Source: Ignavibacteria bacterium
GTDB taxonomy: Bacteria; Bacteroidota; Ignavibacteria; UBA10030; F1-140-MAGs086
Assembly: GCA_016873775.1 (NCBI GenBank)
Contig: VGWC01000009.1
Span: 1 to 52,305, forward strand
DNA: 52,305 nucleotides
Reading direction: 5' to 3'
This document shows positions 26,017 to 32,183 of the stretch, piece by piece (position 1 is the first letter of the stretch; each line of letters begins with the position of its first letter). The notes beneath the pieces are model-generated. The model had not been told where the DNA came from, did no database searches, and was given only the letters and a program-made list of their open reading frames with translations. The translations under genes were made by a program, and so were the position numbers.

Positions 26017-29000
26017 TCATTCTTCCGTTGCAAGCGTTGCAGACTCGACCGTGTTTTCGCTTTGGAATTTTACGGCAACGATTTTCGAAATTCCATCTTC
26101 TTCCATCGTAACACCATACAACGTATTTGCGGCTTCCATTGTGCGCTTATTATGGGTAACAACGATAAATTGCGTATTGTCCGAAAATTTTTTAAGTAAT
26201 CGTGTAAATCGGTCAATGTTCAAATCATCCAACGGCGCATCTACTTCGTCGAGAATACAAAACGGACTTGGCTTTACAAGATAGATCGCAAAGAGCAACG
26301 CAATCGCAGTCAATGTTTTTTCGCCGCCAGAGAGTAAATCAACAGATGTTGGACGTTTCCCGCGCGGTTTTGCGACAATTGCAATTCCACATTCCAGCAC
26401 ATCGGTGTTTTCTTCCAAATGTAAATCGCTTTCATCTCCTTCATCAAACAGTGTTTTAAAAATTGAAATAAAATTTTCACGAATCTTTGTGAACGTTGAA
26501 AGAAATTTTTCCTGCGCCGTTGCGTTAATTTCCTGTATTGTTTCCTTCAATGTTTTTTCCGAAGCAAGCAAATCGTCCCGTTGCTTCATGAGAAAATCGT
26601 GCCGCTCTTTTTCGACACCGTACTGTTCAAATGCTTCAAAGTTCACGCTTCCGAGTGAAGTCAGTTTTTCATTTGCCTTCTGAATTTCCTCTCGCAATAT
26701 CTCCACCGACGGCTCTTCCTCCGAAAAAGTTTTTATTGCAAGTTCAACAGATAGTTCGTTGCGGGCGCGTTCCTTCAAATGTTCGATATGTAATTTTTTT
26801 TCTGCAATCGCTAATTCCAGTTCGTGAACAGAACTCAACGAATATTCGTGTAATCGCCGTTGTTCTTTCACTGACGATTCGCGCTCTTCAAGTATTTTTC
26901 GCGTTCGATGATATTCAACTTCAAGTACAGATTTCTCTTGCTCTGCCGCAACAAAACGAAGATGCGTTCGTTCCCATTCATCCGCAACATTCTGCATTTC
27001 CTTCGCTTGCGTTTGCACCTCTTTTTTCGCCGCATGCATTTCCTGCGCAGCGCGTTGAAGTAGAACAACTGCTTCAGCAATCGTTTGCTTGCAATGCTTC
27101 ATTTCCAGCAACATATTTTTCCGTTCTCCTTCCAGTTCGACAAGCGAAATATTTGCGTGCTGCGTTTTTTCCGCATGCCGTTGTCGCTCGTGTTCACGTT
27201 GCGATAGAAAATGACGCGCTTCTATAACCGACGCTTCTTTTTCCGTTTTATGCTCTTCAAGAATTTCAAGTTCTCGTTGCAATTTCCAAATCGTTTCTTC
27301 AAGCCGTTGTATATCAACGCGCAATCGTTCCCGTTCACTGATGGTGTTTTCGCGTGCATCTTCGGCGTGTTTTTTTTCAAACGCAACTTGCGCAATTCGT
27401 GTTTCCGTTTGCGCCAACTCGCGCTCGATTTCTTTCACTTCATCGTGCATTGCTTTCATATCAAACGATGCAACGTTCTGCTCTTTCATTCCCAATAAAC
27501 GCTGCAATTCATTCTTTTCCTGCAGAAATTTTACAACTTCATTTTGCAACGCATCTATCTGACTTTGTTTTCCAATCAGTACACCCTCTTCTTGACGAAG
27601 ACTACCGCCACGACGAAAACCATTTTGTGTTATGAGTTGACCATCTTTGGAAACACAGCGAATAGTTGGAAATTCTTCAAAAAGTTCTTTTGCTTCTAAA
27701 ATATCATTGACAACAAACACATCGCCAAGCAACAACGCAACGACTGAGCGAATTGTTTCATCGCATTCTATGTTGTTCAGTATGTTTCGAGATTCCCCAG
27801 CAAACGTCGGATGAAACGGTTGTATTTTATCAAGACATACAAAGGTTACTTTTCCTTTGTGTTCGTTCCAAAGAATTTCAATAGCGCGTTCAACATCGCT
27901 TTCAGTTTTCGCAACGAGAAATTCACGTGCATCCCCCATCACGGTATCTACGGCTACGCGATATTCGTCCGACGTTCGAATGAGTTCTGCAAGCGGCATC
28001 AGTTGAGTTTTCCACTGTTCGTGCGAAAGTAAAAATTTTGCTCCTTCCGAAAGTCCTTCATTCCGTTCAACAAGTCCTTTTAAAAAATCAATGCGACTTT
28101 GTCGTTGATGAATCGCATGTTCGGTATCTATGACGTTCCGTTGAAGTTGTTCAAGTTCTTTTTGAACACCGGCTCGAATATTTTCTTTTTCAAAAAACGA
28201 ATGCTCTGCTTCAGAAAATTTGAAACGGAGTTCGTGCGCGCGTGTCGTAAGTTCTTTATACAAATCATTCAGTGATGCAACTTTTTGCGAGTATTGTTCA
28301 ATGTGTTTTTCGAGTCGTTCCTGATGTTGTTCTGCGGCTCGCATCTGCGTGTTAAATTTCTCCAACTCTGTTTGTTTCGTTGTCGTCGTGCGCAATGCAT
28401 CAAAGAGAGAGTCGTTCGCCGATTGGAGAATTTGTTTTGCCGCAATTTCTTCTCGTTCAATGTGCTTGAGTTCCATCGAAACCGATTCGGAAAATTCTTT
28501 TGCTTTTAACAGTTTCATTTCGAGGATAGATTGCTGTTCATCAAGCGATGTACTTTTTTCTTCACTTTGTCTCTTTTGAACTTCTAACGATTGTTGTTCG
28601 TTCTGAAAACGTAGAATGTTCTGCTCAAGCGAAGAACTTCGTTCCGTTGCAAGCACTTTGCGTTCTTCGAGCGAATGAAGTTCATCTCGTATACGTTGAA
28701 CATTATTCGATACGCTTGCAAGGTTGTGTTCCAGCGAGCGTGAAGATTGAAGGATTGCATCGATGTTCTGTTCTTCCGTTTGCAACGAAGCATCAATTGT
28801 AATTTTTTCAGAACGCACTCGTTCTAATTGTAATTCGAGAGGTGAAAGTTCATAGAGTGCAGTATTGAATTCGAGTTCTAAAAAATTGCGTTCGAATTGT
28901 TGCAACAATGTTTTCAATTCGTGAAAACGCTCCGCTTTTTTCGCTTGACGATGCAACGAATTCACTGTTGATTGAACTTCTTTGATGATATCGTTGACGC

Positions 29001-29568
29001 GCAACAAATCGTTTTGCACATCTTCTAATTTTCTTGATGCAATTTTTCTGCTGTGTTTGTATTTTGTTACACCGGCGGCTTCTTCGAATAAGCGACGACG
29101 TTCATCTGTTCGGTCGCTCAAAATTGTTTCCACCATTTTCAGTTCAATCACCGAATACGCATTCGCGCCCATCCCTGTATCCATAAAAAGATTGAGAATA
29201 TCTTTCAAACGACACAACGATTTGTTCAACAAATATTCGCTTTCTCCCGAACGATACATTCGACGCGTAATCGTTACCTCAGAATAATCGGAAGGCAAAA
29301 TTCCTTTGGTATTTTCAATCGTAAGTGATGCTTCGGTAAATCCTAATGGTTTACGGGATTTTGTTCCGTTGAAAATAACATCTTCCATTTTTGAACTCCG
29401 CAATGTGCTGGTTCGTTGTTCCCCCAACGTCCATCGAATTGCATCAACTATATTCGTTTTACCGCAACCGTTGGGTCCAACAATTGCTGTAATGCCGTCA
29501 TCAAACCGCAAGCGAACTTTTTGTGCAAACGATTTAAAACCGAATATTTCCAATTGAGATAAGTACAT
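26017..29568 (-). CDS. smc: Chromosome segregation protein SMC
   Basis: 1183-residue condensin ATPase. The head begins with Walker A GPNGCGKTN (about 32-40) and ends with the ABC signature LLSGGEKTLTAIALL and Walker B ILDEVDAPLDD. Two long coiled coils are separated by the hinge (about 520-670, with SEGAKFLLSHEQW and GDAREFLVAKTESD). The Q-loop region TLGEQRTSTLRSSKMEDVIFNG is intact. It is full length with no breaks. It follows the GH2-like gene by 14 bases. The kleisin partners ScpA/ScpB are not in this window. Confidence 0.97.
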   Translation of the reverse strand: MYLSQLEIFGFKSFAQKVRLRFDDGITAIVGPNGCGKTNIVDAIRWTLGEQRTSTLRSSKMEDVIFNGTKSRKPLGFTEASLTIENTKGILPSDYSEVTITRRMYRSGESEYLLNKSLCRLKDILNLFMDTGMGANAYSVIELKMVETILSDRTDERRRLFEEAAGVTKYKHSRKIASRKLEDVQNDLLRVNDIIKEVQSTVNSLHRQAKKAERFHELKTLLQQFERNFLELEFNTALYELSPLELQLERVRSEKITIDASLQTEEQNIDAILQSSRSLEHNLASVSNNVQRIRDELHSLEERKVLATERSSSLEQNILRFQNEQQSLEVQKRQSEEKSTSLDEQQSILEMKLLKAKEFSESVSMELKHIEREEIAAKQILQSANDSLFDALRTTTTKQTELEKFNTQMRAAEQHQERLEKHIEQYSQKVASLNDLYKELTTRAHELRFKFSEAEHSFFEKENIRAGVQKELEQLQRNVIDTEHAIHQRQSRIDFLKGLVERNEGLSEGAKFLLSHEQWKTQLMPLAELIRTSDEYRVAVDTVMGDAREFLVAKTESDVERAIEILWNEHKGKVTFVCLDKIQPFHPTFAGESRNILNNIECDETIRSVVALLLGDVFVVNDILEAKELFEEFPTIRCVSKDGQLITQNGFRRGGSLRQEEGVLIGKQSQIDALQNEVVKFLQEKNELQRLLGMKEQNVASFDMKAMHDEVKEIERELAQTETRIAQVAFEKKHAEDARENTISERERLRVDIQRLEETIWKLQRELEILEEHKTEKEASVIEARHFLSQREHERQRHAEKTQHANISLVELEGERKNMLLEMKHCKQTIAEAVVLLQRAAQEMHAAKKEVQTQAKEMQNVADEWERTHLRFVAAEQEKSVLEVEYHRTRKILEERESSVKEQRRLHEYSLSSVHELELAIAEKKLHIEHLKERARNELSVELAIKTFSEEEPSVEILREEIQKANEKLTSLGSVNFEAFEQYGVEKERHDFLMKQRDDLLASEKTLKETIQEINATAQEKFLSTFTKIRENFISIFKTLFDEGDESDLHLEENTDVLECGIAIVAKPRGKRPTSVDLLSGGEKTLTAIALLFAIYLVKPSPFCILDEVDAPLDDLNIDRFTRLLKKFSDNTQFIVVTHNKRTMEAANTLYGVTMEEDGISKIVAVKFQSENTVESATLATEE

Positions 29569-29582
29569 AGAGAGAAATACAA

Positions 29583-32183
29583 TTAGTTTCCGCTCTGTGT
29601 GAGGGAAAGCATATAGCGAAGATACGCAGAAGTGGATTGCGTGTAGTCATAATAACTGTACGTTGCCATAACAACGAGTGCAATCAAAATTATTCCAACG
29701 ACGTACACACGCGAAGGAATCATATCGTACACAACGGCAACACCTTTCAAAATGCGTTGCACAATCCAAATCTTCGTCAGTAGCAACAGAAGGAATACCG
29801 GAAAAACATAAAGAGAATTTTCCAGAATACGGTACATCACCATTCCAACTGGGATAAAAACGATAAATGGCAATAATGACCAAACGGTAATTTCATACGC
29901 GTGCAAAAAATATACTTTACTGCGGCGGAAAAGCGAGAAAAATTTGACGACAGTTGTCATCAAGAAAAACACAGCGATAAAAAGAAGTGTGAACCACAGT
30001 ATTGCCATTGGAGGATTCCAAACAATGCGAACAACATGTACTTTCAACGCATCGGAAATCAACAGATGGGAAAGCAACACATCAACAAAAAGCGAATCGC
30101 GGTAATGAAATAAAATACTGGAAAGGAGTACTGCCATCGTCATTGCAAGCACTATTGTTATGATAATTGTTTGCCCGAAAGAAATTATTCTCCGGTCGCG
30201 AACGTCAGCAAAAAAATTATACGTTCGAAAGAGTGAACGATTGACGTTGTCGCGAAAATGTCTGTTTCTATTGTAAAAAAATGCAAACAATATTAACAAA
30301 CCGAGACCCGCAACAACATACGTCATTGGAGAGGTAAAAGAATAATTGCCTACAGGCAGCGCAGAAACTTTTTCTCCAAGATACATTACGCGCAAATGTT
30401 CATACGCTGTTCGCTTTTCGCGAGATTCGGTAACGATACCGTGCGTGAACAAATACGGGTTTTCAGAATGCACAGAAATAGAAGGACGGTCCCCGCGCCA
30501 ATCATTGAATGACCATAACATAACTCCTGCGAGATGCAAACTTTTCGTTCCTTCAAGGAAGAATTGAAATACACGTGCTTGCGCTTCATACGAATGTGGG
30601 TCGCTGGAACCTCGTCTGTTCCCCGGTTCAACATTGCGTCCGTAATAAGCGAGGATCGTCGGTTTTCTGATTTGTTCAATTCTATTTTTCAGTACATTTT
30701 TTTTCTCCAAATTATTCCATTGCGAAATATTCAGTACCGAAAAATCCATTTCATCTTCACAATAATTGTTCTGGATGTTGCTTGTTGCAAAGTACAATGG
30801 ACGTTCATCAATTCCATGAATTGCATTTTTAAATGTATTAACAATCTCACACGCTGTAGCAGAACTGAATTCAATATCATCTCCAATTCCATACGCAAGT
30901 AACGAAGGATGGTTAACGTCGCGTTCCGCCATTTCCTTCGCAATTGCTTCTCCTGTTACCAAAAAATCATCATTCTCAAAGATTTCAAACGGCACTTTTG
31001 CAATGGGCAATTCCTCCAACACAAATAAACCGTATTTATCGCACAACGAAAGAAAATACGGATGCGGAGTTCTGTTTGCAACACGAACAAGATTGATGCC
31101 GGCATTCTTCATCAATGCAACATCTTTTTCCATCGCTGCGTACGTTAAAGCAGAACCGAATTGGGGATGGTCTTCGAACCAAACAATTCCTTTCAAGCGA
31201 TACAAGGAATCATTGAGAAAGATATTTGTTTCCTTCATTGAAACGGCGAGTATTCCGTAATTGAATTTATATTCATCAATGAGCACTGGCATTTCTAACG
31301 GAGGAAATAAAATACTGCAATGCACTTCGTATAAAAAAGGAGTTTCAGGAGACCATAGTTGTGGAAAATCAATTCCTAAAGACAATGAATATTCCGCAGA
31401 ATGATTGTCTTCCGGTATCAAAATAAACGACGTGCTTTTAGCAATCAAAAAATTTGTTGCCTTTTCATAAACCTCGACAAAAAGCATCGGTGCATACTTT
31501 TTATTCCCTTCTTGCGTTTGCGTACGTACAAATCCCTGATTGCGTACTAGTGAACGTACTGTTATCGTCGCCGATTCTTTTGACAATGAAATTTTACTGC
31601 GCGCAGTTATTTTTTCAATTGAAAACTTTGGAGTAAACAACAGAAAGATATCACGAAAGATACCACCATAGTTTTTCCAACCACCAACTTGCTGACGCAA
31701 GGGAACCGTATTGCGTGCGTTCAATTCATTATCAACATACACGACTATCGTGTTGTTACCTCCAAGTTGCAAAACATTTTTTTCGAGCACAAACGAAAAC
31801 GATGTTGTTCCCCCAATATGTCTTCCGACAAAATGTTCGTTGACAAAAATTTCACAAAAATAATTTATTCCTGCGCAAAAAAGTTCGGCAGAAAAATTAT
31901 CCAACATTTCCGAAGAAACATGAAAAGAACGACGTAACCATACTTTTCCTGTTCCATCATACGCGCTCGGAATTTTTACATTGTTCCACGAAGTTTTTTC
32001 ATCAACCGAATATTCCCATGTTCCGGAAAGGTCAATGACGTGCCGCGTAGATGAACCGGAAAACATCCCATCTTCTGTTGCAAGACGCGAACGTTCACCA
32101 TTTTCCAAAAATGTAACTTGCGCATCACTCAAAGTCATTGACATAAAGAATAGCGCAACGATAAAACAGATATATGTATTCAA
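29583..32183 (-). CDS. GH2-like protein lacking catalytic glutamates, fused to a membrane domain
   Basis: 866 residues. A signal peptide (1-21) leads into a GH2 sugar-binding domain (about 45-185, with GVDSTE-like IGGTTSFSF), an Ig-like domain (about 190-310) and a TIM-barrel (about 315-605). The barrel keeps KGIVWFEDHP, MKNAGINLVRVAN and RDVNHPSLLAYGIG. However, the acid/base position, normally NE, reads DD (435-436), and the nucleophile, normally Glu in TEYG, is Tyr (KPTILAYYG, 513). Both catalytic carboxylates of the family thus appear to be missing. The last 250 residues hold about six transmembrane helices (starting near 620, 670, 724, 765, 790 and 826). A membrane-anchored carbohydrate-binding or sensing role is inference. 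Adjacent to smc. Confidence 0.8.
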   Translation of the reverse strand: MNTYICFIVALFFMSMTLSDAQVTFLENGERSRLATEDGMFSGSSTRHVIDLSGTWEYSVDEKTSWNNVKIPSAYDGTGKVWLRRSFHVSSEMLDNFSAELFCAGINYFCEIFVNEHFVGRHIGGTTSFSFVLEKNVLQLGGNNTIVVYVDNELNARNTVPLRQQVGGWKNYGGIFRDIFLLFTPKFSIEKITARSKISLSKESATITVRSLVRNQGFVRTQTQEGNKKYAPMLFVEVYEKATNFLIAKSTSFILIPEDNHSAEYSLSLGIDFPQLWSPETPFLYEVHCSILFPPLEMPVLIDEYKFNYGILAVSMKETNIFLNDSLYRLKGIVWFEDHPQFGSALTYAAMEKDVALMKNAGINLVRVANRTPHPYFLSLCDKYGLFVLEELPIAKVPFEIFENDDFLVTGEAIAKEMAERDVNHPSLLAYGIGDDIEFSSATACEIVNTFKNAIHGIDERPLYFATSNIQNNYCEDEMDFSVLNISQWNNLEKKNVLKNRIEQIRKPTILAYYGRNVEPGNRRGSSDPHSYEAQARVFQFFLEGTKSLHLAGVMLWSFNDWRGDRPSISVHSENPYLFTHGIVTESREKRTAYEHLRVMYLGEKVSALPVGNYSFTSPMTYVVAGLGLLILFAFFYNRNRHFRDNVNRSLFRTYNFFADVRDRRIISFGQTIIITIVLAMTMAVLLSSILFHYRDSLFVDVLLSHLLISDALKVHVVRIVWNPPMAILWFTLLFIAVFFLMTTVVKFFSLFRRSKVYFLHAYEITVWSLLPFIVFIPVGMVMYRILENSLYVFPVFLLLLLTKIWIVQRILKGVAVVYDMIPSRVYVVGIILIALVVMATYSYYDYTQSTSAYLRYMLSLTQSGN

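Follow-up and report, generated by a model that had tools for sequence, protein, structure and literature searches.

What might be the role of a protein that has the fold of a GH2 enzyme, lacks both catalytic glutamates, and is tied to the membrane directly ahead of smc? The question is raised by one gene of the window, the stretch of 52,305 nucleotides of Ignavibacteria DNA that we analysed. The gene lies on the minus strand (29583..32183), as do all the features described below, starts at TTG, and encodes a GH2-like pseudoenzyme of 866 amino acids fused to a Yip1 membrane module. The protein opens with a hydrophobic, signal-peptide-like segment (residues 1-22, 32118..32183), recognised from the sequence, from a hydropathy peak, and from a helix at residues 2-16 of the AlphaFold2 model; this segment has no basic residue after the TTG, and the start codon is uncertain. 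It is followed by a beta sandwich of the GH2 N-terminal sugar-binding type, whose strands are visible in the model (residues ~46-190, 31614..32048; PF02837, E 8.1e-12), a GH2 Ig-like domain (residues ~191-312, 31248..31613; PF00703, E 9.8e-6), and a GH2 TIM barrel (residues ~313-604, 30372..31247; PF02836, E 1.9e-21). The Pfam matches themselves cover residues 59-185, 196-291, and 314-601, all above the gathering cut-offs. The model, built from an eight-sequence alignment, has a mean pLDDT of 73.7 and a pTM of 0.64. GH2 beta-glucuronidases and beta-galactosidases are retrieved both by a phmmer search of the PDB and by Foldseek from the model. Those matched by Foldseek, among them 6xxw, 6ncw, and 3fn9, share the three-domain fold over more than 600 alignment columns at 17-21% identity (E ~1e-31 to 1e-33); the best match of the barrel is the beta-glucuronidase 6xxw (E 1.6e-33). 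With the three domains in the right order, these structural matches, and the presence of the RDVNHPS motif, the GH2 fold claimed by the first-pass annotation is confirmed. Unlike the enzymes it resembles, the protein has neither catalytic Glu, its family has an eroded pocket, and a membrane module follows the barrel.

The loss of the catalytic residues can be followed in detail. We aligned the protein with six ordinary GH2 paralogues of the same phylum and judged the active site from this alignment. At the end of beta4, where all six have the Asn-Glu pair that carries the acid/base, the protein has D435-D436 (30876..30881), and at the end of beta7 the nucleophile Glu present in all six is replaced by Y513 (30645..30647). 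The two glutamates do not occur together in any of 114 full-length relatives, among which the acid/base alone is kept in 24 and the nucleophile alone in 28, and both are absent from six further Calditrichota proteins and from a subfamily reduced to the barrel. The earlier claim that both carboxylates are missing therefore stands, and it extends to the family in the sense that every one of the 114 relatives has lost at least one. When the catalytic columns were left out of a FastTree tree, the rows keeping the nucleophile fell mostly in one clade and those keeping the acid/base mostly in another, a pattern that suggests separate and repeated losses of the two carboxylates. Close pairs have dN/dS values of 0.05-0.14 in the GH2 part and 0.03-0.16 in the membrane module. 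Values this low in the GH2 part indicate that the dead domain is maintained rather than decaying, and together with intact frames in about 115 relatives they rule out pseudogene decay. On these alignments the catalytic loss is a family trait and not a local accident, and the GH2 domain has probably lost its glycosidase activity.

The first-pass annotation had placed a membrane domain after residue 620. Hydropathy and the model agree on six hydrophobic helices there (~620-639, 669-693, 724-752, 759-788, 790-818, and 823-847), and we can now name what had been left unnamed: the last five helices, TM2-TM6 (residues 669-847, 29643..30179), are a divergent Yip1 domain (PF04893). The module of the window itself scores below the Pfam cut-off (10.9 bits against 28.6, E 0.42), but 45 of 63 homologous modules match PF04893 (best E 1.4e-9), a scan of nearby genomes placed four family members above the cut-off (G015, G020, G009, and G004), and a stand-alone module exceeds it too (L153, 32.8 bits against 28.6). 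In profile-profile comparison by hhalign, the module matches the Zn-ribbon Yip1 proteins of the same genomes (93.9%, E 1.5e-7); a second set of stand-alone Yip1 proteins gave an insignificant 2.9% and was rejected as the closest relative. We also set aside DUF4271 and other weak Pfam matches, each found in one or two members, as well as segments of cytochrome oxidase subunit 2 retrieved by a sequence profile against the PDB (E ~0.007), which we judged to reflect membrane composition. Among solved structures, no match to the module was significant (best E 1.8). Separate proteins made of a Zn-ribbon (CPVC..N...C..CG) and a Yip1 domain are found in many genomes of the order (L170-L173, L175, L177, L178, L180, L182, L186, L191, L195, and L196).

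The family resembles these proteins and YknW of B. subtilis in having a profile-matched multi-helix module, and differs from them by the addition, in front of it, of TM1 (residues 620-639, 30267..30326, from the model and hydropathy) and a large ectodomain. TM1 links this ectodomain to the Yip1 module through an Arg-rich juxtamembrane segment (residues 640-668, 30180..30266; RRFRE...RAL.RPYNFFADIRDQRI), which is conserved better than any other part of the family, with a mean column conservation of 0.70 against 0.27-0.44 elsewhere; its NFFADxRDxR signature is not among the eukaryotic Yip1 motifs. The signal-like N-terminus and the positive-inside rule would put this segment in the cytosol and the ectodomain in the periplasm, supporting the earlier view of an outward-facing ectodomain joined to an inner-membrane module. 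The models place five helices after TM1, whose orientation is assigned by charge alone, and the predicted N-in/C-out topology of this part would agree with that of the YIPF proteins, which have a cytosolic N-terminus and five helices (PMC6682643).

The gene is present in 59 of the 60 genomes of the order and its nearest relatives, mostly as full-length matches with 32-45% identity, and searches of the class and phylum add relatives down to ~22%. Searching for the module across the phylum of the window and Calditrichota, we found it in 233 of 245 genomes of the class (211 of 218 when well completed), almost always in single copy, and in eight of nine Calditrichota genomes. Lineage names derive from seven named loci (Ignavibacteriales, Bacteroidota, and Calditrichota), and classes beyond these follow the grouping of the genomes searched. 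Homologues with the same fusion, to which the first-pass annotation had pointed as a check, are found class-wide; it had missed that the protein is a single-copy constituent of the whole class. The ectodomain is reduced in some lineages. In another class, proteins of ~500-670 aa combine the module with a single degenerate barrel, and match the full-length family over both parts (hhalign, 100%, E 4e-43). All seven genomes examined from genus g66 of family f15 lack the ectodomain and have module frames of only 254-368 aa, and the other genera of f15 have no detected copy. This pattern of losses identifies the membrane part as the retained core. The loci of this genus (L153:4929-5705, L260, and L262-L267) encode the Yip1 module alone, still directly ahead of smc.

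The association with smc, noted earlier from the window alone, is indeed kept elsewhere. In the window, smc (26017..29568; PF02463 and PF06470) is co-directional and starts 14 nt after the stop codon of the GH2-Yip1 gene. An automatic test placed it next downstream on the same strand in 86 of 116 loci; four more loci had an smc start overextended into an overlap, and one was left out because its contig ends too early, which gives 90 of 115 testable loci, with gaps typically of 0-26 nt. The stand-alone module is followed by smc in 7/7 genomes of g66. Naming neighbours by Pfam in the window, and elsewhere by sequence inspection and BLAST between loci, we usually found tpiA, gatB, and sucC-like genes upstream and genes for a phosphatase, a methyltransferase, lpxB, and lpxK downstream. 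Calditrichota and a large clade within the class have kept the gene but lost its linkage to smc. In one clade without this linkage, the family gene and an SprA-like gene are transcribed divergently, and hrcA-grpE-dnaJ come after the family gene (L090, L103, L105, L113, L115, L120, and L151); in most Calditrichota loci it stands after an agmatinase-like gene and ahead of an orotate phosphoribosyltransferase gene. In the class with barrel-only proteins, the gene directly follows a co-directional ftsZ in 20 of 30 loci, and where loci are wide ftsQ and ftsA precede ftsZ, with murC further up. The barrel-only relatives that stand directly after ftsZ, at the end of this murC-ftsQ-ftsA-ftsZ cluster, are those of L206, L207, L209, L213, and L231-L258. 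It is striking that the gene is linked to core cell-cycle genes in two independent ways, yet this is an association.

We propose, with about even confidence, that the protein is an inner-membrane scaffold or assembly factor for a machine of the cell envelope. The Yip1-type helical module would sit in the inner membrane and, with the Arg-rich cytosolic segment, make up the working core, while the dead GH2 ectodomain would provide, on the periplasmic side, a rigid accessory platform binding a partner. Structure, conservation, and reduction all suggest that the protein works within the membrane and at its cytosolic side and that the ectodomain is a platform. Glutamates that never co-occur, the Yip1 matches of the module, purifying selection on both parts, and near-universal single copies speak for such a protein, as does an ectodomain that has shrunk to a barrel in one class and vanished next to a retained smc in one genus. 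In animals, dead glycosidase ectodomains serve comparable ends: those of SLC3A2/4F2hc and rBAT support a membrane partner, and the dead GH1-like domains of Klotho act as a co-receptor. The likeness lies in a dead glycosidase-type domain on a membrane anchor, which in Klotho is used for binding on the outer membrane face; the animal proteins have other folds (GH13-type and GH1, respectively) and a single TM helix, and we claim no homology with either. Two papers describe the association of 4F2hc and rBAT with SLC7 transporters (PMC9418156 and PMC9110406). The bacterial precedent is YknW, a Yip1 protein that modulates the assembly of the MacAB-type exporter YknXYZ (PMC4338810 and PMC4887032). 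It is this precedent, along with the animal ectodomains, that leads us to favour a scaffold or assembly factor, one that would act as YknW does in exporter assembly or 4F2hc with its transporter; this role and the identity of the partner are inferred. Some observations pull the other way: the neighbours vary by lineage (smc, ftsZ, sprA/hrcA, orotate phosphoribosyltransferase) and point to no single envelope machine, the module has no match of solved structure, and hardly any prokaryotic Yip1 protein has had its function tested, YknW being the only bacterial one with a described function in our literature search. The review of YIPF proteins offers channel, transporter, or receptor roles instead (PMC6682643).

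The state of the ectodomain bears on two other readings. If catalytic residues had moved to E438 or E519, the protein could still be an active glycosidase; E438 is invariant in the eight-sequence alignment A1 and E519 is frequent within the order, but across the 114 relatives Glu is found at these positions in only 37 and 33, respectively, and other lineages have dispensed with the sandwich or the entire domain. We rejected both residues as substitutes and regard an enzyme of this kind as exceedingly improbable. The carbohydrate receptor proposed by the first-pass annotation, in which a glycan would still bind in the dead pocket, with the membrane module as relay or anchor, has more in its favour. 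The GH2 fold is complete, including the sugar-binding sandwich; the barrel residues N364, R367, D480, and D561 are kept in the family; and the family-specific loop after the nucleophile strand (residues 524-529, 30597..30614; NGYSDP in the family, RGSSDP here) is strongly conserved, with G525 in 111 of 114 relatives and Tyr at position 526 in 101. The pocket itself is eroded, however, with the His of the HYP motif kept in 7/114, the beta8 Trp in 40/114, and Asn at position 435 in 13/114. Together with the absence of the sandwich from the A7 subfamily and of the whole ectodomain from g66, both of which keep the membrane module, this weakens the receptor, which is unsupported as originally stated and in our view unlikely.

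The remaining readings turn to the membrane and the cytosol. The most interesting rival to a scaffold is an envelope factor of the cell cycle, a membrane partner of chromosome segregation or division whose cytosolic segment would touch Smc or FtsZ. The linkages to smc and ftsZ and the conservation of the Arg-rich segment speak for it, but the gene persists in the large clade and in Calditrichota without this linkage, and the neighbours of smc include unrelated housekeeping genes, so that operon conservation alone may account for the pattern. We consider this role decidedly unlikely, and very unlikely its broader form, a lineage-wide factor tying the envelope to segregation or division by contacting Smc in one class and FtsZ in another. 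The module could also be a channel or transporter that moves a solute or lipid presented by the dead GH2 domain. The YIPF review points to prolines and polar residues within the membrane and proposes such roles for prokaryotic relatives (PMC6682643), and in our family P724, W768, and R810 are conserved in or beside helices. Known transporters show no structural match to the module, and we regard transport as a highly improbable function.

The family is a maintained, near-universal, single-copy protein across a whole bacterial class and looks like a shared, uncharacterised part of the cell envelope. Annotation would tend towards beta-galactosidase or beta-glucuronidase, even though the residues for that mechanism are missing. 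In a search of open-licence papers, we found none that joins a Yip1 domain, bacteria, and a glycoside hydrolase. With the natural series from full GH2 and module, through barrel and module, to module alone, one can test what a bacterial Yip1 domain does, and the links to smc and ftsZ provide concrete candidates for partners. Two oddities were met among the relatives. The family gene is split over overlapping frames in one single-contig genome (L152:3330-6057) and intact in its congeners, from either a real disruption or sequencing indels. Two small genomes of 1.7 Mb (L056 and L057) have a very divergent copy, with 20-23% identity, which still stands before smc.
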